DNA from: Sphingomonas cannabina
Lineage (GTDB): Bacteria > Pseudomonadota > Alphaproteobacteria > Sphingomonadales > Sphingomonadaceae
Direction: 5' to 3'
Assembly: GCF_021391395.1 (NCBI RefSeq)
Contig: NZ_CP090059.1
Coordinates: 915,001-979,000, forward strand
Length of the DNA: 64,000 bases
A program made the position numbers and the translations under genes. Within the stretch, counting starts at the first letter, position 1; the number at the start of each line of letters is the position of its first letter. This document shows positions 22,760-37,769 of this stretch, in pieces. The notes beneath the pieces are model-generated. The model was given only the letters and a program-made list of their open reading frames with translations. It did not search any database and had not been told where the DNA came from.

Positions 22760-23757
22760 GCGCAATCTCCTGAGGGCGGGAGGGGCGGATCCGGGAGGAG
22801 GTCGACGAGGCGGTAGCCGCCGTCGGGATCGAGCCCGGCGACGTGCATGACCGCCTCGACCCGTCGACCGGTCCCACGTCCGGCGATGAACACGACGATT
22901 TCGATCGCCTCGGCGATCAGGCGGCGCGGTACGGTGACCACCGCCTCCTGGATGAGTTGCTCGATGCGATTGAGCGCGGCGGGCGCGCTGTTGGCGTGGA
23001 CGGTGGCGATGCCGCCGGGATGGCCGGTGTTCCAGGCCTTGAGCATGTCGAGCGCCTCGGGGCCGCGGACCTCGCCGACGATGATGCGGTCAGGCCTGAG
23101 GCGCAGGGTCGAGCGGACGAGGTCGGCCATGGTGACGGCGCCCGGCCGGGTGCGCAGTGCAACGGTATCGGCGGCGGGCGATTGGAGCTCGCGGGTGTCC
23201 TCGATCAGGATCACGCGCTGGTGGAGGTGCGCCATCTCGGCGAGCAGCGCGTTGGCGAGGGTGGTCTTGCCCGAGCTGGTGCCGCCGGCGACGAGGATGT
23301 TGCTGCGCGCGACGACGGCGAGCGACAGCAGGCGCGCCGCCTCGGCCGACATGATGCCGTCACTCACATAGTCCATCAGCGTATAGAGGCGGGTCGCCGG
23401 TTTGCGGATGGAGAAGCAGGGACCGAGCGCGACCGGCGGCAGCAGGCCTTCGAAGCGCTCTCCGGCGCCTTGCCCATGCGGCGGCAGCTCGGCGGAGACG
23501 ATCGGCCGGTCGGCGTGGACCTCGCCGCGGGCGTGCGACGCCACGAGGCGGATGATCCGCTCGACTTGCGCGGGATCGAACCGGACCAGCGTATCGGTAA
23601 TGCCCTCGCCGAGCCGATCGAGGCGGAGCGCGCCGTCGGGATTGACCATGATCTCGAGGACCTGGCTGTCGGCGAGCGCTGCCGAAATGGTCTCACCCAT
23701 GGCGGTGCGCAGCATGGCGCGGCGCCGGTTTTCGGCGATGGAGCCGATGGCGCTCAT
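22756..23757 (-). CDS. trbB: TrbB, VirB11-like traffic ATPase
   Basis: A 333-residue hexameric ATPase of the type II/IV secretion family. Walker A is AGGTSSGKTTLANALL (about 160), the Asp box is VILIEDTRELQ, Walker B DRIIVGEVRGPEALDMLKAW, and the His box GHPGGIATVHANSA. It drives pilus assembly with TrbE at the cytoplasmic base of the channel. The start overlaps the upstream copG-like gene as ATGA. Confidence 0.96.
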   Translation of the reverse strand: MSAIGSIAENRRRAMLRTAMGETISAALADSQVLEIMVNPDGALRLDRLGEGITDTLVRFDPAQVERIIRLVASHARGEVHADRPIVSAELPPHGQGAGERFEGLLPPVALGPCFSIRKPATRLYTLMDYVSDGIMSAEAARLLSLAVVARSNILVAGGTSSGKTTLANALLAEMAHLHQRVILIEDTRELQSPAADTVALRTRPGAVTMADLVRSTLRLRPDRIIVGEVRGPEALDMLKAWNTGHPGGIATVHANSAPAALNRIEQLIQEAVVTVPRRLIAEAIEIVVFIAGRGTGRRVEAVMHVAGLDPDGGYRLVDLLPDPPLPPSGDCA

Positions 23758-24158
23758 GCCGCGCCTCCAACGCCCGGGACATGGCCGATCGTGCGCTTGC
23801 CGGCGGCGAGCTGGCGGCCGACCTGGGCTACGAATCGCTCGAAGCGGTCGCGACCGACCGCAGCGGCTGCGGCATCGGCGTCGGGCAGCGGCGCCGTCAC
23901 CATCAGCTGGTAGCGGACGAACAGCGAGAGGCTCTCGAGCAGCACCTCGATATCGCGCCGTGCATGCTCGATCTCGCGGGTGATGCGGTCGAGGCGCAGC
24001 TTCAGGAGGTCGTCGATCTCTCGGGTAGCCCGCCGTGCCAGCCAATCGGCGAGCGCGGCATTGACCAGCCGCGACTTGTTCCCGGCGGTGCCGGCCGCGA
24101 GCGCCTCCAGCGCGTCGGCGAGCTCGCGGTCGATATAGAGGTTCTGGCGGACCTTCAT
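23754..24158 (-). CDS. Ribbon-helix-helix (CopG-like) protein of the tra/trb operon
   Basis: A 134-residue protein. Residues 1-45 (VRQNLYIDRELADALEALAA, then GNKSRLVNAALADWL) follow the beta-strand, helix, helix pattern of CopG/Arc DNA-binding proteins; the rest is helical with EHARRDIEVLLESLSLFVRY. A gene of this type is regularly found between traG and trbB in alphaproteobacterial elements and may regulate the operon or act in the relaxosome. It starts 3 bases after the traG stop. Confidence 0.82.
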   Translation of the reverse strand: MKVRQNLYIDRELADALEALAAGTAGNKSRLVNAALADWLARRATREIDDLLKLRLDRITREIEHARRDIEVLLESLSLFVRYQLMVTAPLPDADAAAAAVGRDRFERFVAQVGRQLAAGKRTIGHVPGVGGAA

Positions 24159-24161
24159 GAC

Positions 24162-26204
24162 TTAGAGCCCCGGCACGAGGTCGCGATCGCTGCCCTGATT
24201 GAGGGCGTATCCGCGGGCGACGGCGCTGAAGCCGCGCGCCTGGTCCATCGCGTGGCTGTCGGCGGCGATGTCGTCGTCATCGGCGACGGCAGCCCCGGGA
24301 TTGGGCGCCGGCTCGGCAGGCTGCGCCACTGGCTCGGGCAGGCCGGGATGACGCTGCTGCTCGAGTCCGCCGTCCTCGGCTGCACCCTCGGCATCATCGG
24401 ACTCGCCGAGACGGGCGTCGGTGCCGCGGACGAGATCGCCCCAATCGTTGAGACGCGCGTCGGGACGGTCGGCATAGTCGCCATCCGCCAGCATGGGCGG
24501 CGCCGTCACGCGCCGCGTGAAGTTGCGATCGGCGAAGTAGCGCAGCTTCCTGGCACGGATCGGCGCCATGCCGGAGACGAGCACCAGCTCGTCGGTCGGC
24601 GGGAGCTGCATGATCTCGCCGGGGGTCAGCAGAGCGCGCGCGGTCTCCTGGCGGCTGACCATGACATGGGCGAGCCATGGCGCGAGGCGGTGCCCGGCAT
24701 AGTTGCGCATCGCACGCTGCTCGGTCGCGGTGCCGAGCGCGTCGGAGATGCGCCTGGCGGTGCGCTCGTCGTTGGTCGCGAAAGCGACACGGACATGGCA
24801 GTTGTCGAGGATCGAATTGTGCTCGCCGTAGGCCTTCTCGATCTGGTTGAGCGACTGCGCGATCAGGAAGGCGCGGATGCCGTAACCGGCCATAAAGGCG
24901 AGGCTGGTCTCGAAGAAGTCGAGGCGTCCCAGCGCCGGGAACTCGTCGAGCATCATGAGAAGCTTGTGCCGCCGGCCCGGTCCGGACTGGTCAAGACGCT
25001 CCGTCAGCCGCCGGCCGATCTGGTTGAGCACCAGGCGGACGAGCGGCTTGGTCCGGCTGATGTCCGATGGCGGAATGACGAGATAGAGCGAGAGCGGCCG
25101 CTCGGCGTCCACCAGGTCGGCAATCCGCCAGTCGCAGCGCGCGGTGACCTCGGCGACGGTGGGATCGCGGTACAGGCCGAGGAACGACATCGCCGTCGAC
25201 AGCACGCCCGAGCGCTCGTTCTCGCTCTTGTTGAGGAGCTCGCGCGCGGCGGAGGCCACCACCGGATGGACGCGCGGATGTGCGTCGGTGCCGAGATGGT
25301 TGGTCTCCATCATCCGCTTGAGCGTCGAGACGAACGGGCGCTGCGGATCGGAGAGGAAGGTTGCGACGCGGGCGAGGGTCTTATCCTCCTCGGCGTAGAG
25401 GATGTGGAGGATCGCGCCGACCAGCAGCGAGTGGCTGGTCTTCTCCCAGTGATTGCGCCGCTCGAGCGCGCCTTCGGGATCGACGAGGATGTCGGCGATA
25501 TTCTGGACGTCGCGGACCTCGTCGGTGCCGCGGCGGACCTCGAGCAGGGGATTGTAGCGCGCCGAGCGCGGATCGGTGGGATTGAACAACAGGCAATGCG
25601 AGAAGCGCGACCGCCAGCCGGCGGTCAGCTGCCAGTTCTCGCCCTTGATGTCGTGGATGACGGCCGAGCCGGTCCAGCTGAGCAGCGTCGGCACCACCAG
25701 GCCGACGCCCTTGCCTGAGCGGGTCGGCGCGAACGCCATGACATGCTCGGGGCCGTCATGCCGGAGATAGCGCGGACCGAACCGCCCGAGCATTATGCCT
25801 GCATCGTGCAGCAGTCCGGCGCGTTCGACCTCGCGATCGGTGGCCCAGCGGGCGGACCCGTACGTGGTGACGAAGCGCGACTGACGTGCCCGCCACAGGG
25901 AGCCGGCGATCGCAGCGCCACAGCCGACGAACCCGCTCGCGCCTGCCAACGTGCCAGCGCGGTCGAACACGTGCGGCGCATAGGCATCGAAATGGTACCA
26001 CCAGGGGAATAGCGCCCAGGGCTGGTAGATCGGCAGATTCGCGATACGGAACCACGGCGGACCGAGCTCGGGCTGGTAGGCAAGCATCGCGGCCGCCCAC
26101 TGCGTGCCGGCCCACATCCCCAGCAGCACGATCGCGAAGACAACCAGGATCTGTCCGATGAGCAATTTGGTGGGCGTCACGTCGAGGCTCCCGCCGGTCG
26201 ACAT
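24162..26204 (-). CDS. traG: TraG, VirD4-type coupling protein
   Basis: A 680-residue coupling ATPase that links the relaxosome to the mating channel. Two N-terminal transmembrane helices (about 14-36 and 78-98) precede the nucleotide-binding domain: Walker A FAPTRSGKGVGLVVPTLLSW (about 150), Walker B KLLMMLDEFPALGRLDF (about 415), and FLIAQSLNQIEKAYG. The Pro/Asp-rich C-terminus is probably disordered. The ATG at 26204 is retained because its upstream and leader sequence is conserved in the degenerate copy at 576-720. It is the first gene of the minus-strand conjugation operon. Confidence 0.96.
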   Translation of the reverse strand: MSTGGSLDVTPTKLLIGQILVVFAIVLLGMWAGTQWAAAMLAYQPELGPPWFRIANLPIYQPWALFPWWYHFDAYAPHVFDRAGTLAGASGFVGCGAAIAGSLWRARQSRFVTTYGSARWATDREVERAGLLHDAGIMLGRFGPRYLRHDGPEHVMAFAPTRSGKGVGLVVPTLLSWTGSAVIHDIKGENWQLTAGWRSRFSHCLLFNPTDPRSARYNPLLEVRRGTDEVRDVQNIADILVDPEGALERRNHWEKTSHSLLVGAILHILYAEEDKTLARVATFLSDPQRPFVSTLKRMMETNHLGTDAHPRVHPVVASAARELLNKSENERSGVLSTAMSFLGLYRDPTVAEVTARCDWRIADLVDAERPLSLYLVIPPSDISRTKPLVRLVLNQIGRRLTERLDQSGPGRRHKLLMMLDEFPALGRLDFFETSLAFMAGYGIRAFLIAQSLNQIEKAYGEHNSILDNCHVRVAFATNDERTARRISDALGTATEQRAMRNYAGHRLAPWLAHVMVSRQETARALLTPGEIMQLPPTDELVLVSGMAPIRARKLRYFADRNFTRRVTAPPMLADGDYADRPDARLNDWGDLVRGTDARLGESDDAEGAAEDGGLEQQRHPGLPEPVAQPAEPAPNPGAAVADDDDIAADSHAMDQARGFSAVARGYALNQGSDRDLVPGL

Positions 26205-26290
26205 GCGGTCGATCCGAGCGGGCTCAGACTCTGCCTAGCGGTGCGAAAACTGAATGGCGCTGATGGGCCTTGATGGGCCGGGAAGGGCTA
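26128..26290 (-). repeat. traG leader and upstream region (intact partner of the 576-720 copy)
   Basis: Covers the first codons of traG and its probable promoter region. The upstream part contains two near-direct repeats, GCTGATGGGCC and TTGATGGGCC, which are also kept in the degenerate copy at the left end of the window. Conservation of this non-coding part suggests it is a promoter or operator. Confidence 0.65.
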
Positions 26291-26321
26291 GCTTTGGCGA
26301 TCGACCAGGCACGCGCGGTGG

Positions 26322-27227
26322 TCAAAGTCCGGCAGCGATCCGCAATTCCTTGAGCCGCTCGCGTGAGACCTGCTCAACCAAATCGCGGAGCGTACGCACA
26401 CATCCGAGGATCGCGTTCAGCTCCTCGACGTCGATCTCATAGGCCGTCGAATAGCGCGCCTCGACGTAGGCGCGTTTGAGCAACTGGAAGCGCCGGCGGT
26501 CGATCCGGCGCTCGCGCGGCCACGCCTCGATCAGCCGCGGCTCGTTATCCTCGGCGAGGGAGCGCAGGAATTTGATGTTATGCGAGCGCGGGAAATAGAG
26601 CGTCCGCACGAGCAGGAAACAGATGTAGGCGCGCTCGGTTGTCTGGTGCAGCAGGAAGGCCGCATCTTTGTATTCGCTTTCCCCAATGGCAAACCGCGAT
26701 AGTTTGATCCCACTGTCGATCTTCTTGAGCCACTCTTCGAAATAGGTCTTTGCCATCTGATAGGCGTCCGCCGAGGTGAGTGGCATCGGCCTCGCCAACG
26801 GGTGACACGGCAGCTCGTAAAGGACGATCCCTTCCCGGGCGATATCGACCCAGAAATACTCGCCACGTTTGAGCGACTGATTCACCTCGTCGAGCGAATG
26901 GACGATGATGTTAACCGGCCGCCGGATCTCGGCGTCGCGCAGAATCCGGTCCTCGGCAACATACCAGTAATGGGCGATGTCGGTGAGGTCGTCGTGGCTG
27001 ACCACCACGAGCAGGTCGAAGTCAGACTGATAGCCGTTCTCAGCTTCATCGACCCAGTCGCCCCGCGCATAGGAGCCGAACAGGATGATCTTTAGTATTT
27101 TGCCGTTCCTGCGGCTGGGCGTCGTCGCTCTGGATATTGCCTCGGCGAACTCCTCCATTAGCACGCGCTGGATCCGCTCCAGCTCGCCCTGCTGTACCGC
27201 CGGCAGATGATCGACATCCCTTCGCAT
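26322..27227 (-). CDS. Nucleotidyltransferase-HEPN fusion protein
   Basis: A 301-residue protein. The N-terminal minimal nucleotidyltransferase domain (about 35-140) has LFGSYARGDW and, a little further, SDFDLLVVVS, the G-S-x(n)-D-x-D metal-binding core. The C-terminal half (about 150-285) is a helical HEPN-type domain (FLLHQTTERAYICFLLVRTL; RRRFQLLKRAYVEARYSTAY) without an obvious R-x4-6-H RNase motif. Two-gene MNT/HEPN pairs are toxin-antitoxin systems; here both are fused, and with the HEPN RNase motif unclear it may be regulatory or AMPylating. The ATG at 27227 has GGAAGG upstream. It sits between traG and the XRE/ImmA pair. Confidence 0.78.
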   Translation of the reverse strand: MRRDVDHLPAVQQGELERIQRVLMEEFAEAISRATTPSRRNGKILKIILFGSYARGDWVDEAENGYQSDFDLLVVVSHDDLTDIAHYWYVAEDRILRDAEIRRPVNIIVHSLDEVNQSLKRGEYFWVDIAREGIVLYELPCHPLARPMPLTSADAYQMAKTYFEEWLKKIDSGIKLSRFAIGESEYKDAAFLLHQTTERAYICFLLVRTLYFPRSHNIKFLRSLAEDNEPRLIEAWPRERRIDRRRFQLLKRAYVEARYSTAYEIDVEELNAILGCVRTLRDLVEQVSRERLKELRIAAGL

Positions 27228-27344
27228 TAAGGCCTTCCATGCGGTAGACACGCAAACGCGCCCGGCCGAACCTCTGCTATTAACATTTTCGATCCTGCGA
27301 GCGGCAAGTCTGCACTCGGCTCATCAGCCCACATAGACGCAGGC

Positions 27345-28226
27345 TCATCTGCCATAGGCAAATTTGGGGCGATAGCTCTCGATCAGCTTCGCTTCCTCAT
27401 CCTCTTCCTCATCCGGATCGGGCGGAAGATTCTCGCTCGTCAGTACCGTTAGCGTGAAACCATATTCTCCGAGCCCGATTACCTGTTCGTCGAGCTCGAT
27501 CTGGGATGAACTCCCGAACCAATCGTTGAGGGTCGTCAGCTCACAGGCGCGTCTCGCTGCCTCAACGTTGACCCTGTCGGCGTTGAAGCGCCGCGTCAGC
27601 GTTTGTGGAAGGGCGCAGCCCCTGCGCAGGAAGTTCAGGCGGCCGAGCTTTTTGAAACCTTCCGAAAGGAAGGCGTAGCGCACTTCATCACTCCTGCTCA
27701 TCACAATTGCCATTGGGTAGGGACTGCACTCTGCCGCGCGGATCGCCGACGCGGTGAGGGAGCATTTCGATATCTCGGCAAGCGCTTCGATGCCCTCGAG
27801 ACCGATCTGTTCTCGGTCCAGCTCAGCCTGGACCAGCCGGGTCGGCAACAACAGGCCGGAGGCGAAATGGTCGGCCTCAAGCTCGATCGCGGAATTCCCC
27901 TCGGTAAAGCCCGCTCGCGAGATATGTGCCGGAGCAACTTTGAGGATTTCTTCCGGGTGCCCATCCAGGAAATAATGCCCCAGCTCGTGGCCTATGGTGA
28001 ACCGCTGAAATCCGTCGCTTTTGATGTCGGTCGAGTAAAAGATCCCGACTTCGTCTCCAAAGATAATGCCCCCACTGACGCCAACTTGATCAGGTCGCTT
28101 TGGCACGACCAAAATGTCTTCAGCCGAAGCGATCACGAATGGATCGATCGGAAAGGTGTCGAACCCGTGCTCCTTGGCCTTTCGCTCCCCGCATTGGCGA
28201 GCCCAGGAGAGCCGGGCCTTGCTCAT
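27345..28226 (-). CDS. ImmA/IrrE-family metallopeptidase
   Basis: A 293-residue protein of the COG2856 family. The zinc site is HELGHYF (residues about 80-84) with the third ligand in ELEADHFASGLLLP. The N-terminal region (FPIDPFVIASAEDILVVPKR) is the usual lead-in; the C-terminal part is variable and ends with an acidic stretch (DPDEEEDEEAK). Such proteases cleave a partner XRE repressor to induce mobile-element or defence genes. The ATG overlaps the XRE stop as ATGA, so both are made together, which supports a repressor-antirepressor pair governing the divergent ubiquitin-like operon. Confidence 0.9.
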   Translation of the reverse strand: MSKARLSWARQCGERKAKEHGFDTFPIDPFVIASAEDILVVPKRPDQVGVSGGIIFGDEVGIFYSTDIKSDGFQRFTIGHELGHYFLDGHPEEILKVAPAHISRAGFTEGNSAIELEADHFASGLLLPTRLVQAELDREQIGLEGIEALAEISKCSLTASAIRAAECSPYPMAIVMSRSDEVRYAFLSEGFKKLGRLNFLRRGCALPQTLTRRFNADRVNVEAARRACELTTLNDWFGSSSQIELDEQVIGLGEYGFTLTVLTSENLPPDPDEEEDEEAKLIESYRPKFAYGR

Positions 28227-28576
28227 TCTTCGCCAGCCTCCCGCTTCTTGGTCATGAGGTCGATCATCATCTGGATGTGTTCCCGGTCATGATGCGAGAG
28301 CTGCTCCTCGCCGCGAAAAGCGGTGGTGGCGCCTTCCATCGTCGGCGAGCGACCAAGCAAGAAATCGGAGGACACGCTCAACGCCTTGGCGAGGGCCCGG
28401 ACATTCGCGAATGATGGCTTTCGCCGGTCCCGCTCGAAATGTCCGATCGCGGCGGCCTGCAATCCCGCCAATTTGGCGAGTTCGGCTTGGCTAAGGCCGC
28501 GCTTCTCGCGCGCCTGGACCAGCCGGTCGCCAAAATCGTCGCTACCTTCGGTCGTCATTGACTCTACGTTATCCAT
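28223..28576 (-). CDS. XRE-family helix-turn-helix repressor
   Basis: A 117-residue regulator. The HTH_3 domain (about residues 12-68) reads DRLVQAREKRGLSQAELAKL, then AAIGHFERDRRKPSFANVRA with the recognition helix, followed by a C-terminal helix (HHDREHIQMMIDLMTKKREA). The ATG at 28576 is 11 bases from a perfect palindrome it probably binds. It is transcribed divergently from the ubiquitin-like operon and coupled to the ImmA/IrrE peptidase gene. Autorepression plus repression of the divergent operon is the natural model. Confidence 0.88.
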   Translation of the reverse strand: MDNVESMTTEGSDDFGDRLVQAREKRGLSQAELAKLAGLQAAAIGHFERDRRKPSFANVRALAKALSVSSDFLLGRSPTMEGATTAFRGEEQLSHHDREHIQMMIDLMTKKREAGEE

Positions 28577-28586
28577 TCCTGTATAG

Positions 28587-28600
28587 CTACGATATCGTAG
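28587..28600. promoter_or_regulatory. XRE operator 1 (CTACGATATCGTAG)
   Basis: A perfect 14-bp palindrome just upstream of the XRE start codon. The same CTACG-N4-CGTAG arms recur at 28646-28659, and a half site (CTACG) lies at 28564-28568. Position suggests control of the XRE/ImmA promoter. Confidence 0.75.
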
Positions 28601-28645
28601 GTAGATCGATTGGCCCCCTCGGGGCATTTTTTTGATCGTATCTAT

Positions 28646-28659
28646 CTACGAAAACGTAG
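28646..28659. promoter_or_regulatory. XRE operator 2 (CTACGAAAACGTAG)
   Basis: Second site with identical CTACG/CGTAG arms and an AAAA centre, 59 bp centre to centre from operator 1, placed toward the ubiquitin-like operon. AT-rich sequence follows directly (TTTTTATATG), suitable for a promoter melting region. Confidence 0.75.
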
Positions 28660-28668
28660 GTTTTTATA

Positions 28669-28690
28669 TGACGACTCGGTGGGGTCGTCA
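28669..28690 (+). promoter_or_regulatory. Inverted repeat in the leader of the ubiquitin-like operon
   Basis: TGACGAC (28669-28675) pairs with GTCGTCA (28684-28690) around an 8-base loop, ending 20 bases before the first start codon. It may be a leader hairpin or a third protein-binding site. Confidence 0.45.
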
Positions 28691-28710
28691 AGCAGCGTGA
28701 GGACGGGAAC

Positions 28711-28848
28711 ATGACGAAGAAGCCTGAAGTGACGAGCAAGCGGGCGGCTACTGCCGCTTCGAAGGTGTTGCGCGACCCCAAGTCGAGCAAGGCAGCGAAG
28801 ACTGCAGCCGCCTCGGCGCTGACGCAGCGCCCCAACCGCAAAAAGTAG
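28711..28848 (+). CDS. Small basic protein, first gene of the ubiquitin-like operon (45 aa)
   Basis: A 45-residue Lys/Ala-rich protein (MTKKPEVTSKRAATAASKVL, ending RPNRKK). It is preceded by GAGG and followed immediately by the ribosome site of the Ub-like gene, which overlaps its TAG stop. Basic, probably helical, with no recognised domain. Being first in the operon behind the XRE operator and so short, it may be a nucleic-acid-binding or target-recruiting accessory. It was too short for routine gene calling but the spacing strongly supports it. Confidence 0.68.
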   Translation: MTKKPEVTSKRAATAASKVLRDPKSSKAAKTAAASALTQRPNRKK

Positions 28849-28857
28849 GAGGCCAAG

Positions 28858-29115
28858 TTGGCGAACGACAAGCCCAAGAAGACCGTAACGATCGTCGTCG
28901 AAGGCACGGAGCATGAGTGGCCGAAGGATGAGATCAGCTACGCCGAGGTCGTGACCCTGGAGGTGCCGGACTACGCGCAGCATCCCGAGATCACATATTC
29001 GGTCACCTACAAACGCGGCCACGGCAACAAGCCCGAGGGCACGCTGGTGCCGGGCGCCTCGATCAAGGTGAAGAACGGGATGAAGTTCAATGTTTCGGAA
29101 ACTGGTCAGTCATAA
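28858..29115 (+). CDS. Single-domain ubiquitin-like protein (multiubiquitin family)
   Basis: An 85-residue protein starting at TTG with a perfect AGGAGG five bases upstream. It matches the multiubiquitin domain family: KTVTIVVEGTEHEWPKDEIS, the acidic VVTLEVPDYAQHPEITYSVT strand region, then YKRGHGNKPEGTLVPG and KNGMKFNVSET. Relatives usually carry several tandem domains; here there is one. It ends in TGQS with no C-terminal Gly-Gly, so conjugation would need either an atypical terminus or processing. Its end overlaps the E1-like gene by 26 bases. It is expected to be the modifier of the conjugation system encoded downstream. Confidence 0.88.
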   Translation: MANDKPKKTVTIVVEGTEHEWPKDEISYAEVVTLEVPDYAQHPEITYSVTYKRGHGNKPEGTLVPGASIKVKNGMKFNVSETGQS

Positions 29116-30283
29116 TCCGGATCTCGGGCGCTTGGTCGAGCGCGGCTACGCGGTCGCGTTCGACAGCAATTGCCTGATCGTTCGCGACATCCCGTATCTG
29201 GACCGGGAAGGCGATCTACAGTGGGGCGCAATAGTCGCTAAGCTCGTCTTCGTCGATCACGAACGGGTTCAGCAGGATGACCACCAAGTCTATTTTGCCG
29301 GCACGCATCCGCATCAGCTGGACGGCACACCGATTCGCAACCTGGGCGGTGGCGCAACGACGATCCAGTTGACCGCAGCTTGCGCCGATGTGGTTGTGCA
29401 ACGCTCTTTCTCGAACAAGCCGAAGGCGACGGGAAAATTTGAGGACTTTTTCGAGAAGATAGAAAGCTACGTCTCGGTCATCGCCGGCCCGGCGATGGCA
29501 AAGTTCGACGCAAACCCATACACCTTCAGATGCAGGGAGGAGATTGCGCCGGACACGATCTTCAAGTTCCAAGACACGCTCACCTCGCGCGCTCAGATCG
29601 GAGATCTCAATGAAGGTTTTGCCGAGGAGGTGGTGGCCGTCATCGGGCTTGGGGGGACGGGAGCCTATCTGCTCGACCTGCTGGTCAAGACACCGGTGCC
29701 CGAGATACGCGGCTTCGACGGTGACGGCTTTCATGTCCACAATGCGTTTCGCTCGCCTGGGCGGCTCGACGGAACCGAACTCGGCCTGAAGAAGGTCGAA
29801 GTCTATGAGGGGCGCTACGAGAATTTCCGGCACGGCTTGCGACTTGAGGCGACTTATATCGACGAGGGCTCCGCAGATGCGTTCGCCGGTGTGACTTTCG
29901 CATTCGTGTGCGTGGACAAGGGATCGGCGCGCGCTGCGATTTTTGAGCTGCTGGTCTCACTCGGCATTCCGTTCATCGATGTCGGCATGGGCCTCAAACG
30001 GAAGGACGGGCCGCTCAACGGCATGCTCCGGGTGACCTATTACTCGGCGGAAGACGCCGCGCAGATGTGCGAGCGTCAGCTCGCCGAACTGTCAGACGTG
30101 CCTGACAATCTCTATCGTGCCAACATCCAGATTGGAGAACTCAACGCGCTCAATGCGTGTCTGGCACTCATCAGGTATAAGCAGCTTCGGGGCTTTTATC
30201 GCGAAGAAGAGGCGCTCAAGCATTTGTTGTTCGGCGTTGGCGACCTTCGCATCACCGGAGAGTCCAGCTTTGACGACGTTTAG
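29090..30283 (+). CDS. ThiF/E1-like adenylyltransferase with N-terminal E2-like region
   Basis: A 397-residue enzyme. Residues about 180-370 are the ThiF/E1 fold: ATP loop GLGGTGAYLLDLLVK (186-200), D210 in GFDGDGFHVHN, then N219 and R221 in the adenylation motif, and Cys candidates at 274 (AFVCVDKG) and 327 (AQMCERQ) for thioester formation. Residues 1-170 (SNCLIVRDIPYLDR; VYFAGTHPHQLDGTPI) resemble the domain found N-terminal to ThiF in multiubiquitin operons, possibly an E2-like fold (DUF6791). It should adenylate the Ub-like protein and perhaps also transfer it. ATG at 29090 is inside the Ub-like gene. Confidence 0.85.
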   Translation: MFRKLVSHNPDLGRLVERGYAVAFDSNCLIVRDIPYLDREGDLQWGAIVAKLVFVDHERVQQDDHQVYFAGTHPHQLDGTPIRNLGGGATTIQLTAACADVVVQRSFSNKPKATGKFEDFFEKIESYVSVIAGPAMAKFDANPYTFRCREEIAPDTIFKFQDTLTSRAQIGDLNEGFAEEVVAVIGLGGTGAYLLDLLVKTPVPEIRGFDGDGFHVHNAFRSPGRLDGTELGLKKVEVYEGRYENFRHGLRLEATYIDEGSADAFAGVTFAFVCVDKGSARAAIFELLVSLGIPFIDVGMGLKRKDGPLNGMLRVTYYSAEDAAQMCERQLAELSDVPDNLYRANIQIGELNALNACLALIRYKQLRGFYREEEALKHLLFGVGDLRITGESSFDDV

Positions 30284-30668
30284 GCTTGCGCGTGTGCGCA
30301 CAATGCCAGCTCAGATCGAGCCGGGCATCCTCTACGTGTCGGAAGAGTTTGAAACCGCTGCGCACCTGTGCGCGTGTGGTTGCGGATCGAAGGTCAGAAC
30401 CCCCCTTGGGCCAACTGAATGGTCGTTCTGGGAGGATGCCACCGGTCCGACCCTATCTCCCTCGATCGGAAATTGGCAGCGGCCATGCCAATCGCATTAT
30501 TGGATCAGGGGCGGCCAGGTCGAGTGGTCGACGCAGTGGTCCGCGGAGCAGATTGCCGCTGGCAGGCGGCGCGAGCAGATGCGTCGAGAAAGCTACTACG
30601 CCAAGCAGTATCCGAACGGACTCCTGGCGCGTTTCTGGCGCTGGCTGAAAGATTTGTTCGGAGGCTAA
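30270..30668 (+). CDS. DUF6527 family protein (probable zinc-binding partner)
   Basis: A 132-residue protein. The core LEPGVLYVSEEF-like segment (IEPGILYVSEEFETAAHLCA) runs into CACGCGSKVRTPLGPTEWSF and later RPCQSHYWIRGG; these Cys/His groups probably bind zinc. Family members sit next to multiubiquitin and E1-like genes and may act as an E2/E3-like factor or isopeptidase partner; biochemical role is not settled here. The TTG at 30270, overlapping the E1 stop, keeps the conserved N-terminus (FRLARVRTMPAQ); the ATG at 30303 is the alternative. The C-terminus is basic and amphipathic (RFWRWLKDLFGG). Confidence 0.8.
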   Translation: MTTFRLARVRTMPAQIEPGILYVSEEFETAAHLCACGCGSKVRTPLGPTEWSFWEDATGPTLSPSIGNWQRPCQSHYWIRGGQVEWSTQWSAEQIAAGRRREQMRRESYYAKQYPNGLLARFWRWLKDLFGG

Positions 30669-30697
30669 CGAACGTTTTCGAGAGGCAGGAGGGGGTG

Positions 30698-31168
30698 ATG
30701 GAAACCCACAATTTCGAGCGGCTAAAAGCGCACATTCTGCCGCTGTCGGAAGCTTCGACATTCGATATCGCACGTCGAGAATGGGATCTTGTTGGCGTCG
30801 AGATCAGCGAAGAATTCGATCACTGCCCGTGCGGTCAAGATATCAAGGAACATTGCTATATTCGGAACAGGTTGAATGGCAATTCGACCTATGTTGGGAA
30901 CGTCTGCATCAACCGCTTCATCCAGATCGACACCGGCAATCTCTTCGAAGGCCTGAAGCGCATCGCAAAGGACATTTCCGCCAACGCGAACAATGACCTC
31001 ATCGAACACGCCTATCGAATGGGCTATCTGTTTGGCGAGAAGGAATATCGGTTCCTGAAACAGACGGCGCTCAAGCGTAACCTCTCGTCCGCGCAGATAG
31101 CGTGGAAGCAGAAAATCAATCGACGAATACTGAGCAAGACAATCGTCCAGCGTCGAAGTGCGATCTGA
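30698..31168 (+). CDS. Cys-rich hypothetical protein, last gene of the ubiquitin-like operon
   Basis: A 156-residue protein starting METHNFERLKAHILPL with GGAGGGGG upstream, 29 bases after DUF6527. A probable treble-clef/zinc-ribbon module occupies about residues 40-75: CPCGQDIKEHCYIRNRLNG and YVGNVCINRFI. The remainder is helical and basic (LKQTALKRNLSSAQIAWKQ). I do not recognise a named family, although similar CxCG...GNVCxxRF modules occur in small mobile-element proteins. Its position suggests a role as target adaptor or effector in the same system. Confidence 0.65.
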   Translation: METHNFERLKAHILPLSEASTFDIARREWDLVGVEISEEFDHCPCGQDIKEHCYIRNRLNGNSTYVGNVCINRFIQIDTGNLFEGLKRIAKDISANANNDLIEHAYRMGYLFGEKEYRFLKQTALKRNLSSAQIAWKQKINRRILSKTIVQRRSAI

Positions 31169-31362
31169 TGCCGATGCCCACTCGCGGGCACGGCTACAAA
31201 CACCCGATCCACATACGGTGAATTACCAGCTGCATCCTCGACCAACCGCAGCGATGCCTGCTTTCGTGACTAGGCGATCCGATAGCTGCCGGTCTGCTAT
31301 CGGCCCAGTTCCGGTCACGCCAGCGCACCGGTATCTCCGAATCCGGTTAGTTCACTGCCCTG

Positions 31363-32475
31363 TTATGCCGCTTCGATCATGGCTTCGCTGATCTCGGCCT
31401 TGACCCAATTCAGCAGCACCAAGTTGCGGATGGCTCCGGCCACGGCTTCGCGCTTTTCTTCGGACCGCCAAGACGGTTTCCAGTCCAGCACATAGTCCAA
31501 TATGTTCTGTTCGCTGACGGTCGAGCCCGGTCTGCGCGCCTTGATCCACCGGCAGGCATAGATGATGGTTGCGACTTCCTCGGCCTGTTCGGTGCTTTTG
31601 ATGCGGCTGAACAGGTCGGCCGTCTTGTCGATCTTCTTGCGGTGGAGCTCGATCTCCGGGCCCAGCTTGCGCCGGTCCTTTTCATATTGGGGGCTGACCC
31701 GGAAGGCGATCATCTTGCCGAGCTGCGCTTCCTGAAGCCAATTGCGGTTGGCGAAATCGTGAAGTGCGGCCTTCATGTCCCCCGAGAACGGGCCATAGCT
31801 TCCCTTGCCGAACTCAAAGCCGGTCGGCACTCTCATTTCGGTGAGGACATAGGCGATCTTCTGAAAAATCGTCCGCCCCACCGGGTTCGCATAGGGCTGC
31901 GCCTGAAGCTCGCGCAGCACTTCAACCAGGGCGATCCAACTCGGGTTAGGCTTCTCGGCCCTGATTCCCCGACCTGTCAGGCTGAGCTGCGACGGCGCAG
32001 CGAGGAACTCGGCCGTCAGCTCGCTCTTGGGCGTGCCGTACGGCGCATAGACCTCGACGTCGATCGGCAGCTCGTGGAGCTTGGCGTGGATCAGCGGCCC
32101 CACCTCCGACCAGGCCAAGCCACCGTTACCGCAGCCGAGCGGCGGCAAGGCCAGGCTGGTGATTCCCCATTCGGCGGCATGGGCGGCGAGGTAGTCGAGT
32201 CCGCGATCGATATCCGCCAACCGCGAGGACGAGCGCCAATGACCCTTGGTTGGGAAGTTGACGATCCGCGCACCCGTTTCATCGGTATAGAGATAGGGCT
32301 CACCCAGGCGCACCTCGCCGCGTGCGCAACGATCCGCATAGTCCCGCGCCATGCGAGGAAAGCGCTTCTTGAACTCCAGCGCCACGCCCTTGCCCATCAC
32401 GCCGACGCAATTGACGGTATTGACCAGCGTCTGCGCCTGGCTGGCGAACAGGTCTCCGATCAGGGCTTTGAACAT
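31363..32475 (-). CDS. darG: DarG, macrodomain antitoxin
   Basis: A 370-residue protein. The N-terminal macrodomain (about 1-155) has IGDLFASQAQTLVNTVNCVG, the phosphate loop VMGKGVALEFKKRFP and LALPPLGCGNGGLAW, the ADP-ribose binding site that removes ADP-ribose from DNA. The C-terminal half (about 180-370; VGRTIFQKIAYVLTEMRVPT, FGKGSYGPFSGDMKAALH) is the toxin-binding domain of full-length DarG. It directly follows darT with a gap of 8 bases. Because the toxin gene is frameshifted, this antitoxin may now be orphaned. Confidence 0.9.
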   Translation of the reverse strand: MFKALIGDLFASQAQTLVNTVNCVGVMGKGVALEFKKRFPRMARDYADRCARGEVRLGEPYLYTDETGARIVNFPTKGHWRSSSRLADIDRGLDYLAAHAAEWGITSLALPPLGCGNGGLAWSEVGPLIHAKLHELPIDVEVYAPYGTPKSELTAEFLAAPSQLSLTGRGIRAEKPNPSWIALVEVLRELQAQPYANPVGRTIFQKIAYVLTEMRVPTGFEFGKGSYGPFSGDMKAALHDFANRNWLQEAQLGKMIAFRVSPQYEKDRRKLGPEIELHRKKIDKTADLFSRIKSTEQAEEVATIIYACRWIKARRPGSTVSEQNILDYVLDWKPSWRSEEKREAVAGAIRNLVLLNWVKAEISEAMIEAA

Positions 32476-32483
32476 AGGATTCG

Positions 32484-33082
32484 TTACCACGGATTTGGCC
32501 GAAAGAACAGAACGGGATCAATGGTGGCTGTCATATGCGGTGCCTGAGCCGTCAGCCGGTCGTGGGCGACGGCATCGATCACGTAGGCGCCGGTCAGCAA
32601 TTCCTGGGGAACGCGGTGCGGCACCAGCACTTCCGCGCATTTGCGGGACTTGTGCTGAAAATATCGTCTTGGATCGTCGGGGTGGGTCCAACTCTCGGCA
32701 AGCACGTCGTCGAAATTGATCAGCGCCCATTGGAGGGATGCAGGAAACGGGCATAGTCACTGGCGGCATTGCTGTCGGTGATGACGGCGCCCGGCATCGC
32801 CAGAACGTCGAGCGACACGCGGAGCACGCACAACGATCCGGCTTCGCCTAAACGTTTGTAAAGCATCGGGTTGCGGGCGTGGAAGTATAGGTTGGCATAT
32901 TGGTGGAGTCGCAGGCCTTGGGGCACGCGCCGCTGATCGCGCCGGTCCTGCACAGGCTGCATGGCGACCGACGCATGCTGAAGCTGGGCGGCTCTTTCAT
33001 AAGATAGGATGCCATGCGCCAACACCGACGGGAGGTTCGCGATCGGCATTATGCAATGCAGTTCGGCGACGCGCGGATCCAT
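32484..33082 (-). pseudogene. darT: darT, DNA ADP-ribosyltransferase toxin, frameshifted
   Basis: The first 120 codons (stop at 32720) give the DarT N-terminus: IANLPSVLAHGILSYERAAQ, RRDQRRVPQGLRLHQYANLY, FHARNPMLYKRLG, and ITDSNAASDYARFLHPS. The remainder, LINFDDVLAESWTHPDDPRR and the catalytic-Glu region KCAEVLVPHRVPQELL, is in another frame. Restoring one base near 32732 (CCTCC read as CCTCCC on the minus strand) rejoins the frames into a full-length protein of about 200 residues. As written, the toxin lacks its catalytic glutamate. A sequencing error at this C-run is the main alternative. Confidence 0.82.
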
Positions 33083-33236
33083 AGCGTCACGGCTTCGGCG
33101 ACGAAGCTATCGGCGTCAAGGACGGGGGGCAACCGAGTACGAACATTTGGCGGCGATCGATCCAAATGCAACTAATCCAATAATAAACTATACATCACCA
33201 AAGCGCCGGCGGAGCCCCGGGCGAAAGGAGAGGTCG

Positions 33237-33482
33237 ATGGCTGACGACAAGCTGCGCAGTTTCCACCTGACGAAGAAGGGGGATGCATGGCGCCTCGAAC
33301 AAGCTGGCAGCGATCGCGCGGTCCGCACCTTTGGCCGGAAGAGTGACGCGCTGAAAGGGGGCGTGCTGAAAAGCGCGTTGGGAACGCAGGGCGGCTCCGT
33401 GAAAATCCATGACGAGAAAGGACGCATCCAGCAGGAGCGGACCTATCCACGGGCTAAGGATCCGCGGAAATCGAAGGGCTGA
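33237..33482 (+). CDS. DUF2188 family protein
   Basis: An 81-residue basic protein of the DUF2188 type: FHLTKKGDAWRLEQAGSDRA, then GGSVKIHDEKGRIQQERTYP. This small fold occurs widely in soil bacteria, with a beta-rich core and charged linker; function unknown. AAAGGAGAGG precedes the ATG. It is divergent from the darTG pair and followed by another small gene. Confidence 0.82.
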   Translation: MADDKLRSFHLTKKGDAWRLEQAGSDRAVRTFGRKSDALKGGVLKSALGTQGGSVKIHDEKGRIQQERTYPRAKDPRKSKG

Positions 33483-33593
33483 CAGCCGAGGAAGCTTCGC
33501 CTCGTCATTGAGCGGGGCTTGCCCAATGTTCCTATAATGTTCTAAATTCCGCTCCAGCGCCCTCGTGGTGATTCGATCAGTCCTGGAGCCGTC

Positions 33594-33791
33594 ATGCAGC
33601 ACGATGCCTGCCTGCGCGCCGCCGCGCGCGCGATCTACGATGCCTGTTTTCCGACCGAGGAACTTGCGCCGGTCGGTTTCGACGAAGCCGAGAAATACGG
33701 AACGATTCATTACCGCCGGGCGGTCGAAGCGGCGCAGAATGCGCGGTTGCATCTGCTGTATGGACGGGAGGCGCAGCCGAGCCTGCTTTAG
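33594..33791 (+). CDS. Hypothetical protein (65 aa)
   Basis: A small soluble protein (MQHDACLRAAARAIYDACFP, then FDEAEKYGTIHYRRAVEAAQ) predicted all-helical. The composition and absence of a competing frame make it a credible gene; GGAG lies 9 bases upstream of the ATG. No family recognised and no strong tie to neighbours. Confidence 0.55.
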   Translation: MQHDACLRAAARAIYDACFPTEELAPVGFDEAEKYGTIHYRRAVEAAQNARLHLLYGREAQPSLL

Positions 33792-33903
33792 CGTACCGGA
33801 GCAGCAGGACAGCGACGTTGCCATCATGCATCTGCCCGCTTGTAGAGCACCAACGTCTGCAAGCAGTCGTCTAGACCGACCGAAGCAAACAGGAGGGGCA
33901 GGT

Positions 33904-33922
33904 GTATTGACATTGTCAATAC
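33904..33922. promoter_or_regulatory. Operator/promoter of the TacAT-type toxin-antitoxin operon
   Basis: A 19-bp palindrome with perfect 9-base arms (GTATTGACA / TGTCAATAC) around one central T, 48 bases before the antitoxin ATG. It contains a consensus -35 hexamer TTGACA (33907-33912) with ATATCC about 17 bases on as a weak -10. A RHH antitoxin bound here would block transcription. Confidence 0.7.
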
Positions 33923-33969
33923 AATCTCCATATCCAGCTCCTCATGAGTTTGCGTACGGAGGGTTGAAC

Positions 33970-34254
33970 ATGGCGGACGTACTGGAGCGGCCGAAGGCCG
34001 ATACGACGATCACGATGCGCCTGCCCGTGCAGACTCGTGAGCTGATCGATCGCGCCGCGGCGACGATCGACAAGTCGCGTACCGAGTTCGTGCTCGAGAG
34101 CGCCCGGCAGCGCGCCATCGATGTGCTGCTCGATCAGCGGGTGTTCCACCTCGATGCCGCAGCGAGCGAAGCCTTTGCGGACATCCTGGAGAAGCCGCCG
34201 GCACCGGTCGAGGCGCTGCGCACGCTGGTGGCGAGCAAGTCGCCTTGGGAGTAG
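33970..34254 (+). CDS. DUF1778 (TacA-like) antitoxin
   Basis: A 94-residue ribbon-helix-helix antitoxin: DTTITMRLPVQTRELIDRAA, then KSRTEFVLESARQRAIDVLL, the DNA-binding half, and a C-terminal tail (FADILEKPPAPVEALRTLVA) that would wrap the toxin. It overlaps or abuts the acetyltransferase gene and has a palindromic operator upstream, so it should neutralise the GNAT toxin and autorepress the operon with it. Confidence 0.9.
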   Translation: MADVLERPKADTTITMRLPVQTRELIDRAAATIDKSRTEFVLESARQRAIDVLLDQRVFHLDAAASEAFADILEKPPAPVEALRTLVASKSPWE

Positions 34255-34268
34255 TCGAGCCGCTCGGC

Positions 34269-34787
34269 ATGTCCCGGCGCCCCTATGCCGCGCCGACGCC
34301 CATCACCGCTGATCACCGGCTGGACGGATTCGCCTGCGGCAAGTCGCCGCTGGACGATTGGTTGAGAGCGCACGCGCTCGAGAACGAAGGCAAGGCGTCG
34401 CGCACCTATGTCGTCACGGCGCAAGCCGGCGAGGACGCCGGTAACGTGGTCGCCTACTATACGCTCGCCTACGGCAGCGTCACACGGGAGGAGGTGCCGA
34501 AAAAGATCCGGCAAGGCCTGCCCAATCCGGTTCCGGTGATGGTTCTGGGGCGTCTGGCTGTCCACCGGAACCACGGCGGCAAGGGCATCGGCGCGGGACT
34601 GCTCCGGGAGGCGATGCAACGCACCCTGGACGCGTCGCTGGTCGCCGGCTTGCGGGCACTGATCGTCCATGCGCTCGATGACGAAGCAGTGGGTTTCTAT
34701 GCCCGATATGGTTTTCAGGTGTTTCCCGCCGGGACCAGAACGCTGTTCCTGCCGGTCGAGACGTTGCGTCAGGCCGTTGCCGGCTGA
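34269..34787 (+). CDS. GNAT acetyltransferase toxin (TacT-like)
   Basis: A 172-residue N-acetyltransferase. FACGKSPLDDWLRAHALENE is the usual TacT N-terminus, VVAYYTLAYGSVTR the core strand, and LGRLAVHRNHGGKGIGAGLL the acetyl-CoA pyrophosphate loop (about residue 100); VGFYARYGFQ closes the fold. TacT toxins acetylate the amino group of charged tRNAs and stop translation. The ATG at 34269 is preferred; a TTG at 34245 overlapping the antitoxin end is the alternative. The downstream 236 bases to the relaxase stop hold nothing recognisable. Confidence 0.88.
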   Translation: MSRRPYAAPTPITADHRLDGFACGKSPLDDWLRAHALENEGKASRTYVVTAQAGEDAGNVVAYYTLAYGSVTREEVPKKIRQGLPNPVPVMVLGRLAVHRNHGGKGIGAGLLREAMQRTLDASLVAGLRALIVHALDDEAVGFYARYGFQVFPAGTRTLFLPVETLRQAVAG

Positions 34788-35023
34788 AGCCGGGCGGAAC
34801 ACGGCAAAACAGCCGTCAGCCATAATGCCCAAGCCGTCGCCAGCGACAGGCGAACGCGCACGTCAATCAACCCGTGGTGACGCGTGGCCATGGCTTCGGG
34901 CTCGGCGGACCCGGTATCCCGCGACAGACTGTGCGCATGCTGCCCTCCACCAGCTGCGTGCCAGGTGTGACCGGCGGCGGTCCGCTCGCGCGATGATAGG
35001 CAACGCCACCATCGGTGATGCAG

Positions 35024-37000
35024 TCAGCTGATGGACGGTCCGTTCCTGCCGCGTCCGATCGACCAGCTGATGCCGTCACTCCGCATCAGTCCCGACACCG
35101 CCTTGCCGACATGGCGGTCGAGCACAGGCCGCCACGGCACCAGCGTGAACTCGCGGGATTTCTCGATCAGCGCGAACCGGCCGCCGGCGAGATCGACCGC
35201 CCGCCGGTAGATGCCCTCGACCCGCGCGCCGGCCGGTGTTTCCACGAACGGCCTGCCGAGCTCGTCCGAGAGCCGCGCAGCGGCGCGCAGTAGCTCGCGG
35301 CGCTGGAGGGTGGCGAGCAGCCCGGGGCGGTAGGTCGTCCTGCCCAGCGTTTCCTCGGCGAGCTCCTGGGCGACCAGCCATTGCCGGCGCTGCCGCTGCG
35401 CATCGCGCACCGCCTGCCCGAACCCGGCATCGCGCAGCGGCTCGAGTACGGCTGCGACGAGCTCGCGGTCGAGCCAGGTCGCCGCCTCGGCATCGATCAG
35501 CCTGTCGAGCGGTTGAGCCGAGAGCGTCTCGACCCGCACCGGAGCCTCTCTGGCGCGGGTCGCCTCATAGGCCTGGGCACGGTCGAGATGGTCGGGCGCG
35601 ATGATCCAGCTGCCATCTGCTGCGCGTTCGACGGCGCCGCCTTTCCGTCGCATCGCTTCGAGCCGGCGGACATGGGTTTGGGCGAACGCCTCCGTCGCGC
35701 CGGGATCGTGGCGCAGATGCGCGTCGACGTCGTAGCGCCCGCCATTGGCCGCGGCGACCGCGGCGATCGTGCGGTCGACCGCGCGGACCGCCGGCGGCGC
35801 GGGCGTGATCCGGACGATCGCGCCGGCCGGCAGCGGCGCCAGCGTCTCGCCCTTGCCGATATCGACATAATGGGTGCGGCCGTCGGTCGCTTCGACCAGC
35901 AGATAATGGCGGTCGCGATGCTCGTCGGAGAGACCGCGTTCGAGGACGCGTCCGGTGATTGGTCGCGCGTCCGGCGCCATAGGCTCATAGATGGCGAGAT
36001 CGGCCGCGGCAGGCGCGATGCCGCGCGCCGTGAACGCGCGCTGCATGGTGCGGATGATGTCGCCGCGCTCGCCCATCCGGCGCAGCGTGTCTTCGATACC
36101 CTCCGCCAGCTGCCAGCGGCCGTCGTTCAAACGTTCGGCAAGGCCGAGCCGCGCGAGTGTTTGGAGGCGGCCGGTGCGCAGGCTGTGCTGGAAGGGATCG
36201 CGTCCCAGCGCCGCGACGGTGCGCTCGTCGTCCATCTCGCGAAAGAGCTGGCGATCGATGCTGGTCAGCCGCTCCTGATCGATCTCGGCGCGGACCCGCG
36301 CCTCGATGTTGCGGTCGTTGCGAGGTCCAAGATCGAGATCGACGAGCTCGGCCGCGCGCTCGCGGATGCCGCGGGTCAGATAGTCGGGCGCGATGACGAG
36401 ATCGCGCCCGGATATGTCCTTGCCGCGCACGATGACATGGGTATGCGGATGGCCGGTGTTGAAGTGATCGACCGCCACCCAATCGAGCCTGGTGTCGAGG
36501 TCCTGCTCGACGCGCGCCATAAGCCGGCGGGTCAAGTCCTTGAGGTCGGCATATTGGTCGCCGTCCTCGGGCGAGACGATGAAGCGGAACTGATGGCGAT
36601 CGCCGGCGTGGCCGTCGAGCCAGCGCTTGCCGTCGACCTTGTCGGCGTCCGGACCATAGAGCTCGCCCGGCCGGCCGTCGCGGGTGACGCCGTCGCGCTG
36701 GATGTATCTGAGGTGGGCGCGGGCACCGTCCATTCCCTTGCCGGCGAGTTTAGCGATCCGCGTTTTGACGATGACGCGGCGCTGCCGATAGGCAGCATAG
36801 CGGTCGCGCTGGGCGAGCAGCCGGCCGACGCCCGCGCCGCGTCCGATCCGGGCGCCGGCGAAGGCGCCGCGCCGACCGCCGCTCCCGCCGCGGGCGAGAT
36901 TGGCGGCGGCAAGCACGCGCGAGAGATAGCTGCGGGCGCGTTTGCCGCCGCGATCGCCGATGCGGCCGAGCTTGGGCTCGAACATGTCGTCTGTGGCCAT
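35024..37000 (-). CDS. Relaxase (VirD2-like, DUF3363 type)
   Basis: A 658-residue relaxase. A basic N-terminus (residues 1-70, Gly/Arg-rich) leads into the catalytic domain: AHLRYIQRDGVTRDG (about 100, with the probable active Tyr), LDWVAVDHFNTGHPHTHVIV (about 185) which is the three-His metal motif, and GKDISGRDLVIAPDYLTRGI. The DUF3363 region fills the C-terminal half (residues about 260-640). It nicks oriT and stays linked to the transferred strand. ATG at 37000 is favoured (MATDDMFEPKLGRIGDRG). A candidate oriT lies directly upstream. Confidence 0.93.
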   Translation of the reverse strand: MATDDMFEPKLGRIGDRGGKRARSYLSRVLAAANLARGGSGGRRGAFAGARIGRGAGVGRLLAQRDRYAAYRQRRVIVKTRIAKLAGKGMDGARAHLRYIQRDGVTRDGRPGELYGPDADKVDGKRWLDGHAGDRHQFRFIVSPEDGDQYADLKDLTRRLMARVEQDLDTRLDWVAVDHFNTGHPHTHVIVRGKDISGRDLVIAPDYLTRGIRERAAELVDLDLGPRNDRNIEARVRAEIDQERLTSIDRQLFREMDDERTVAALGRDPFQHSLRTGRLQTLARLGLAERLNDGRWQLAEGIEDTLRRMGERGDIIRTMQRAFTARGIAPAAADLAIYEPMAPDARPITGRVLERGLSDEHRDRHYLLVEATDGRTHYVDIGKGETLAPLPAGAIVRITPAPPAVRAVDRTIAAVAAANGGRYDVDAHLRHDPGATEAFAQTHVRRLEAMRRKGGAVERAADGSWIIAPDHLDRAQAYEATRAREAPVRVETLSAQPLDRLIDAEAATWLDRELVAAVLEPLRDAGFGQAVRDAQRQRRQWLVAQELAEETLGRTTYRPGLLATLQRRELLRAAARLSDELGRPFVETPAGARVEGIYRRAVDLAGGRFALIEKSREFTLVPWRPVLDRHVGKAVSGLMRSDGISWSIGRGRNGPSIS

Positions 37001-37059
37001 GGCCTGATCCGGTCCGCGCGCCCCGGGGAAGAACATGGCGCGCTTGGCCGGCGCTGAAA

Positions 37060-37203
37060 ACCGGTGCCGCCGAAAGCCGCAGAAATCCGCTAATTCTTCA
37101 GCAGGTGGCACCGGTGCGCGAGCGGCAGTGCCGGTGCAATCGCTGGAAAAGGATGTGCAGACAATCGCTTGCGGCACCGACGGTGCCGGCGCTTTATCTT
37201 GCC
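37060..37203. other. Candidate origin of transfer (oriT)
   Basis: Immediately upstream of the relaxase gene, the motif CCGGTGC/GCACCGG recurs in both orientations: arms ACCGGTGCC (37060-37068) and GGCACCGGT (37107-37115), a further GTGCCGGTGC near 37129, and a compact hairpin GGCACCG-A-CGGTGCC (37173-37187). Eight bases after the hairpin is TATCTTGCC (37195-37203), one base different from the RP4-type nic core TATCCTGCC. Hairpin plus nic core next to a relaxase is the standard oriT layout. Confidence 0.6.
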
Positions 37204-37669: not shown

Positions 37670-37717
37670 GCGCGCCCCGGGCGATCCGGCGTTCTCCGCG
37701 CCAAGGGCCAAAAGAGC

Positions 37718-37750: not shown

Positions 37751-37769
37751 TGGGACGGGCGATCTCCCG

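Follow-up and report, generated by a model that had tools for sequence, protein, structure and literature searches.

Background

Ubiquitin-like conjugation operons of the Bub type consist, in Citrobacter and Enterobacter, of genes for BubA and BubB, for the fused BubCD and for a DUF6527 protein, which is presumably the one named BubE. Beyond the titles of the PDB entries, the biochemistry of Bub is used here as general background. CapH/CapP pairs, a repressor and a peptidase encoded together, are reported to turn immune operons on after DNA damage. Here we describe an operon with the Bub gene order in a stretch of 64,000 nucleotides from Sphingomonas cannabina (contig NZ_CP090059.1, positions 915,001 to 979,000; hereafter the window), in which genes for a ubiquitin-like protein (Ubl), an E1-like enzyme and a DUF6527 protein follow a CapH/CapP pair. 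In Bub an E2-like protein (BubB, Prok-E2_E family) is present and a JAB domain (BubC) is fused to the E1, whereas in the window the N-terminus of the E1 is formed by a DUF6791 domain and neither of the two was found. We therefore compared the locus with its relatives and with Bub. It is, in our opinion, rather probably a DNA-damage-inducible ubiquitin-like conjugation operon, a sister type of Bub without JAB and without E2_E that travels as cargo of a conjugative element and works as proposed below.

The literature drawn on is the available text of three papers (PMC13373217, PMC12687455 and PMC1779556); our search found no paper on DUF6791, nor one on DUF6527 in connection with ubiquitin-like proteins. 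Of 544 reported Bub operons, a number that may or may not include the DUF6791 type, 219 are accompanied by CapW or by CapH and CapP, and the same paper states that phage protection by Bub is yet to be demonstrated (PMC13373217). The operon type and its JAB-less architecture are not new, having been in print since 2006: in operon row 6e of Iyer et al. (Genome Biology; PMC1779556) some E1s begin with an uncharacterised domain where others have JAB. Like the window, that subset has an E1 fused to a domain unrelated to JAB; it combines this with one to three Ubl repeats of about 70-75 amino acids (aa), of which the window has one, and with a small gene of zinc-finger type, to which the DUF6527 gene may correspond. 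Judging from its description rather than from an alignment, the domain of row 6e is presumably DUF6791.

Organisation of the operon

The locus comprises the following features.

27345..28226, minus strand: capP, an ImmA/IrrE (M78) metallopeptidase (PADLOC capP 3.2e-62; Pfam Peptidase_M78 5.1e-10) with the zinc motif HELGH in its sequence
28223..28576, minus strand: capH, a helix-turn-helix repressor (PADLOC capH 1.3e-29; HTH_3 1.9e-14)
28587..28600, no strand: CTACGATATCGTAG, an operator-like palindrome of the motif CTACGN4CGTAG in the stretch that separates capH from the operon
28646..28659, no strand: operator-like palindrome CTACGAAAACGTAG, the second copy, 59 bp from the first
28711..28848, plus strand: gene 1, a basic microprotein of 45 aa without a family match
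28858..29115, plus strand: Ubl, one beta-grasp domain (Multi_ubiq, PF14452, 1.3e-16), with a TTG start and the end ...SETGQS-stop
29090..30283, plus strand: E1, with DUF6791 (PF20590, residues 10-163, 1e-41) and ThiF (about residues 167-397, 1.4e-7)
30303..30668, plus strand: the gene of the small DUF6527 protein (PF20137, 1.1e-24)
30698..31168, plus strand: gene 5, a Cys-rich accessory protein with the pattern C-x-CG ... VGNxC and without a Pfam match

An earlier note on this DNA had proposed a five-gene ubiquitin-like conjugation-type operon beside an XRE/ImmA-IrrE pair. All five plus-strand genes and the divergent minus-strand pair were confirmed, and the family matches agree with both proposals; by its PADLOC matches the pair is CapH/CapP. 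The same note described the genes as packed with overlaps, which is supported for the 26 nt shared by Ubl and E1 but for no other pair among the five. The overlapping starts at 30117 (DUF6527) and 30419 (gene 5) were rejected because homology in relatives begins later, at 30306 and at about 30698, respectively; the ATG of the DUF6527 gene at 30303 lies 19 nt past the E1 stop. For capH, the internal ATG at 28576 is the probable start, giving an overlap of 4 nt with capP.

Distribution and conservation of gene order

Of 396 genomes from the order of S. cannabina, 28 contain DUF6791, this species being one of the 28; none of 14 control genomes has it. Homologues of the E1 are present in 115 of 72,556 plasmid records, and for 108 the match extends across 80% or more of the protein. 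Nine relatives lie on viral contigs; one (L089) shows the full capP-capH / Ubl-E1-DUF6527 order, and several others are fragments or distant E1s.

We studied 34 loci: besides the window there are five on plasmids (L030-L034) and 28 that come from 27 further genomes. The three alignments (A1-A3) hold 33 sequences: L059 was left out on account of match scores equal to those of L058 (probably one element in two genomes), and both are counted among the 34. The Ubl gene stands directly 5' of the DUF6791-E1 gene in all 34, and a DUF6527 gene lies 3' of the E1 in 28; it is missing in L041, L052, L053, L054 and L062, and L036 ends at a contig edge. This order is therefore not due to chance. The search for the five-gene order in other genomes, which the note had suggested, thus bears out the core, but gene 5 accompanies it in only 2/34 loci.

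The expectation that the set has no separate E2 and no JAB-type isopeptidase also held. Hidden Markov models (HMMs) of E2_E and JAB, at E <= 10, gave no match in the fetched neighbourhoods of the 34 loci (for the window, region 20001-40000), nor in the further DUF6791 loci L065, L067 and L068. Among 11 Bub-type yardstick loci, ten hold both, and none has a DUF6791 match. The yardstick matches arise by construction, since the HMMs were built from these loci; three yardsticks (L080-L082) were picked by an E2_E match, and for the remaining eight only a piece of the BubD part served as the criterion. All eight found through the E1 part alone (L078, L079, L083-L088) hold both E2_E and JAB. In L082 E2_E matched over its C-terminal part only, and JAB gave no match.

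The two operon types also have parts in common. Both have a Multi_ubiq Ubl (that of the yardstick L079 also matches PF14452), an E1 module of BubD type and a DUF6527 gene at the 3' side, which in the yardstick matches PF20137 at 7.4e-22. Apart from the E2 and JAB components, the window differs in its single Ubl domain with a native C-terminus, in CapH/CapP instead of CapK/CapS, and in the extra genes 1 and 5. Two JAB-type Bub loci (L083, L087) carry further genes: in R. gallicum one annotated as a Clp protease proteolytic subunit comes after DUF6527, and in Bradyrhizobium the E1 and DUF6527 genes are separated by one for a phosphotransferase.

The ThiF/E1 module is also shared with the Type II cyclic-oligonucleotide-based antiphage signalling (CBASS), Bil and 6A-MBL pathways, in line with weak matches of the window's E1 to PADLOC E1-E2 and NCBIfam 6A-MBL. 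Unlike these pathways, the five genes gave, in a Pfam scan, no nucleotidyltransferase effector, metallo-beta-lactamase or recognised cysteine E2.

The ubiquitin-like protein and the E1

By profile the Ubl matches the PDB entry 9cd2, a multi-ubiquitin protein (E 2.2e-20). The window encodes one Ubl domain, and longer Ubl open reading frames (ORFs) occur in many relatives. The last residue is Ser in 32 of the 33 aligned homologues, and in the window this Ser directly precedes the stop codon. The Ubl would thus be made with its final C-terminus, so that maturation by a JAB-type protease should not be needed.

As a whole the E1 matches NCBIfam PRK06153.1-2, a 'hypothetical protein', at 4.9e-186. 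The motif GxGGxG and the residues D210, D212, R221, K235 and D276 are invariant in all 33 sequences. No cysteine of the E1 is universal, the most frequent being C274 (23/33).

In the DUF6791 part the invariant residues are L15, P35, G46, H65, G71, P74 and G79. An AlphaFold2 model of the E1 (predicted local distance difference test score 87.7, predicted template modelling score 0.65) shows two N-terminal helices in this domain, strands at 21-25, 28-37, 43-54, 60-62, 66-70, 89-92 and 103-108, and a helix at 120-139. This helix-strands-helix order and its spacing are suggestive, being compatible with the E2/RWD fold as generally known, with an extra hairpin where the active-site loop of an E2 lies. 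The structural comparison of the model aligned essentially residues 152-397 and barely covered residues 1-151; the E1 half aligned slightly better with the solved BubCD than with ThiF. From the model and the domain arrangement, DUF6791-E1 may possibly be a single-polypeptide E1-E2.

Several results weigh against an E2 step by DUF6791. Residues 1-172 contain no conserved Cys column, the maximum being 14/33 at position 75, which is His in the window, and the DUF6791 profile aligned to the Bub E2 domain with an hhalign probability of 0.3%. As for the E1 half, the advantage of BubCD over ThiF is a near tie, and TcdA had a slightly better sequence score. The earlier proposal of an E2-like region in residues 1-170 is compatible with the modelled element order, but finds no counterpart in profile similarity or in a conserved cysteine. 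The proposal that DUF6791 is a diverged Prok-E2_E at the sequence level was rejected, the likeness being by eye only.

Alternatively, DUF6791 could serve for deconjugation or processing, as a counterpart of JAB, and transfer to targets would then fall to the E1 or to an E2-like host protein. The domain occupies the place of JAB, N-terminal on the E1, and contains the invariant H65 and other conserved polar positions; a JAB-like role for the domain of row 6e was suggested from conserved charged residues (Iyer et al. 2006, available text; PMC1779556). We nevertheless hold this explanation to be doubtful, though worth serious attention. Not only JAB but also E2_E was missing from the neighbourhoods, which would require a single domain to do away with the need for the two, and maturation should not be needed for a Ubl that already ends at its C-terminus. 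Moreover, DUF6791 aligned to the JAB profile with an hhalign probability of 0.1%, and the S. cannabina genome, one of 289 searched, has no match to Prok-E2_E (PF14462). For Prok-JAB there are three matches in that genome, all remote from the window; two exceed the cut-off.

The DUF6527 protein and gene 5

Numbered from the Pro at 30306, the DUF6527 protein has the invariant residues C22, C24, C26, C61 and H64, a pattern that would fit a zinc site. The spacing C22-x3-C26-x34-C61-x2-H64 is close, though not identical, to the zinc finger C-x(3)-C-x(35-38)-H-x(2)-C given for row 6e in the available text of PMC1779556. In the structural comparison made, the protein gave no recognisable fold.

Gene 5 homologues were found in 91 plasmid records and in no phage record. 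As a core part of the operon gene 5 was rejected, in view of its rarity in the DUF6791 loci and of its presence in only 3 of 385 genomes of the class (S. cannabina included). Ten plasmid neighbourhoods with flanks of 4 kb, hand-picked mostly from the top of the list, were viewed, and in seven of them capH-capP lies inside these flanks. In six of the seven, gene 5 comes after capP and is read in the same direction: five have a CBASS-like order of nucleotidyltransferase, hypothetical protein and HNH endonuclease, and one lies beside an operon with ThiF and a metallohydrolase. The seventh, from Croceicoccus, is arranged like the window: gene 5 comes after the DUF6527 gene of a DUF6791 operon, and capH-capP lies at the opposite end. 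The three neighbourhoods without capH-capP are a helicase/Shedu neighbourhood, an IncT plasmid and Synechococcus. Five of the seven share one gene order and are therefore not independent. In L063, L064, L072, L073 and L074 the gene 5 homologues, at about 4001-4480, are 79-83% identical to that of the window and stand directly after capH-capP beside a CBASS-like operon.

From these neighbourhoods, gene 5 is best seen as an optional defence-associated accessory that is often linked to CapH/CapP; possibly it is a third member of the CapHP module.

Gene 1 and the control region

The 45-aa basic protein listed in the earlier note is real. Homologues of gene 1 are present in L048, L049, L067 and L068, and in these loci, as in the window, it always lies between capH and Ubl. 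Over 36 codons, the synonymous versus non-synonymous differences from the window are 20/3 (L049), 19/6 (L048), 17/3 (L067) and 16/3 (L068). As most differences are synonymous, gene 1 is, on codon evidence, a real protein under purifying selection. For three of the five gene 1 loci the operon itself was the reason for fetching the neighbourhood, so that the plasmid search alone is independent of it; there, out of 72,556 records, two gave a match, each next to the operon at a place that carries no annotation, one of the records being practically unannotated.

The two palindromes, starting at 28587 and 28646, are the sole CTACGN4CGTAG sites in the window. The 4.39-Mb genome contains three such sites, two of them at the operon, and nine sites of a reversed control pattern. 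Single sites are therefore expected by chance, and a pair so close probably is not. In Rhizobium leguminosarum (L067) the motif occurs twice, also with a spacing of 59 bp but with other centres, and Ensifer (L068) has one site. The pair is likely to be the CapH operator, as predicted from the sequence. The idea that the motif is general to the family was rejected, as it is absent from 14 of the 17 regions scanned, including the gene-1-bearing L048 and L049.

Divergent CapH and CapP homologues adjoin 13 of the 34 DUF6791 loci; L036, where a CapH match and an M78 fusion are encoded on the same strand as the operon, was left out of this count. CapH and CapP are regulators of CBASS; in the window the pair lies, divergently and upstream, beside a ubiquitin-like operon, and the operator motif was seen in only three loci.

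Other regulators and repair-type genes occur near the operon in relatives. A WYL protein is found near 3/34 loci, and in L030 and L031 such a regulator adjoins the operon together with a TM0106 RecB-like nuclease/helicase, after which rmuC is encoded. A large protein is encoded beside the Ubl gene in L035, L036, L037 and L039 (4/34). In the scanned L036 and L037 it consists of M78 (ImmA/IrrE-type), UvrD helicase and PD-(D/E)XK nuclease parts, and may be a one-piece damage sensor.

The conjugative element

The Ubl, DUF6791-E1 and DUF6527 genes are consecutive at 28858-30668, with conjugation genes on both sides, which agrees with the earlier placement of the operon in a conjugative element. TrbI, VirB8, TrbL, a VirB4-type protein, TrbC, a T2SSE-type ATPase and the coupling protein are encoded at 14.4-26.2 kb of the window, and at 35.0-37.2 kb a protein with DUF3363, which we take to be of relaxase type. 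The two longest plasmid DNA matches of the region lie in the TraG part (Sphingobium and Sphingomonas plasmids, 78-79%). Between the type IV secretion genes and the DUF3363 gene the cargo includes an NT-HEPN protein, the Ubl operon, a macro-domain gene accompanied by a split DarT gene, and a DUF2188 gene.

The NT-HEPN protein (26322-27251, minus strand) adjoins traG. Seven match rows in the S. cannabina genome, of which three close to one another are partial or interrupted by stops, together with matches in 20 out of 61 genomes, including this one, suggest a repeated cargo gene. The DarT (PF14487) toxin gene at 32484-33082 (minus strand) appears split, its N- and C-terminal parts matching in two frames (5.9e-25 and 4.7e-7), and the adjoining macro-domain (DarG-type) antitoxin ORF at 31363-32490 stays open. 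A DUF2188 protein, presumably related to YegP, is encoded at 33237-33482 (plus strand; start placed by eye). In Sulfitobacter and Sagittula the gene annotated directly 5' of Ubl is a DUF2188 gene, and a small ORF that resembles DUF2188 by eye recurs in L042, L055 and L060. YegP-like genes have been reported after capK-capS (available text of PMC13373217).

Such a setting had been taken to suggest a defence or element-maintenance role. The defence side gains from the presence of CapH/CapP, but the toxin-antitoxin neighbours say little, because the DarT gene itself is split into two frames. The idea of an addiction module that kills or arrests cells losing the element is in keeping with NT-HEPN and DarTG-type genes as neighbours within a conjugative element, and in Sagittula a pair of DUF4433 (which we take to be DarT) and a macro-domain protein, presumably of DarT/DarG type, also flanks the operon. 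Such a role seems improbable to us, as the Pfam scan revealed nothing toxin-like in the five genes, control by CapH/CapP fits a damage-induced system, and the adjoining DarT is itself split. A sulfur-carrier or metabolic pathway of the ThiF/ThiS kind is very improbable, since the Ubl ends in Ser and not in Gly-Gly, no metabolic or rhodanese gene was recognised beside the operon, and the regulators are of defence type, with DNA-repair-type neighbours in relatives.

Proposed working of the operon

For the damage-inducible conjugation operon that we favour, the following course may be proposed. Single-stranded DNA from phage infection, damage or transfer would activate CapP, which would cut CapH and thereby free the two palindromic operators; this switch is reported for CapH/CapP elsewhere, and the operators are predicted here. 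The Ubl would need no maturation protease. The ThiF module would adenylate its C-terminus, as is usual in the family and consistent with the invariant ATP-site residues. The fused DUF6791, which lacks a catalytic cysteine, would then perform in cis the transfer step that BubB performs in Bub; this is the weakest step. DUF6527 would process or support conjugates by a zinc-site mechanism, and genes 1 and 5 would encode accessory proteins. Conjugation and phage defence by the operon are thus suggested by its gene content.

More tentatively, and with considerable doubt on our side, a cysteine-free E2-type DUF6791 within the E1 and a pre-matured, Ser-ended Ubl could form a minimal pathway, with CapH/CapP and genes 1 and 5 as a damage-sensing module shared by CBASS-like, ThiF/MBL-like and Bub-type systems.

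Conclusion

The details added here are gene 1 as a real protein, the palindrome pair, and gene 5 as an optional accessory. The available text on the subset of row 6e (PMC1779556) makes no mention of CapH/CapP control, gene 1, gene 5 or operators, or of a missing E2-like gene. Since an E2-like protein and JAB were both not found near the DUF6791 operons, DUF6791 marks a place to test a minimal ubiquitin-like conjugation chemistry with two or three small proteins, and the operator pair and the microprotein make damage-induced control directly testable.

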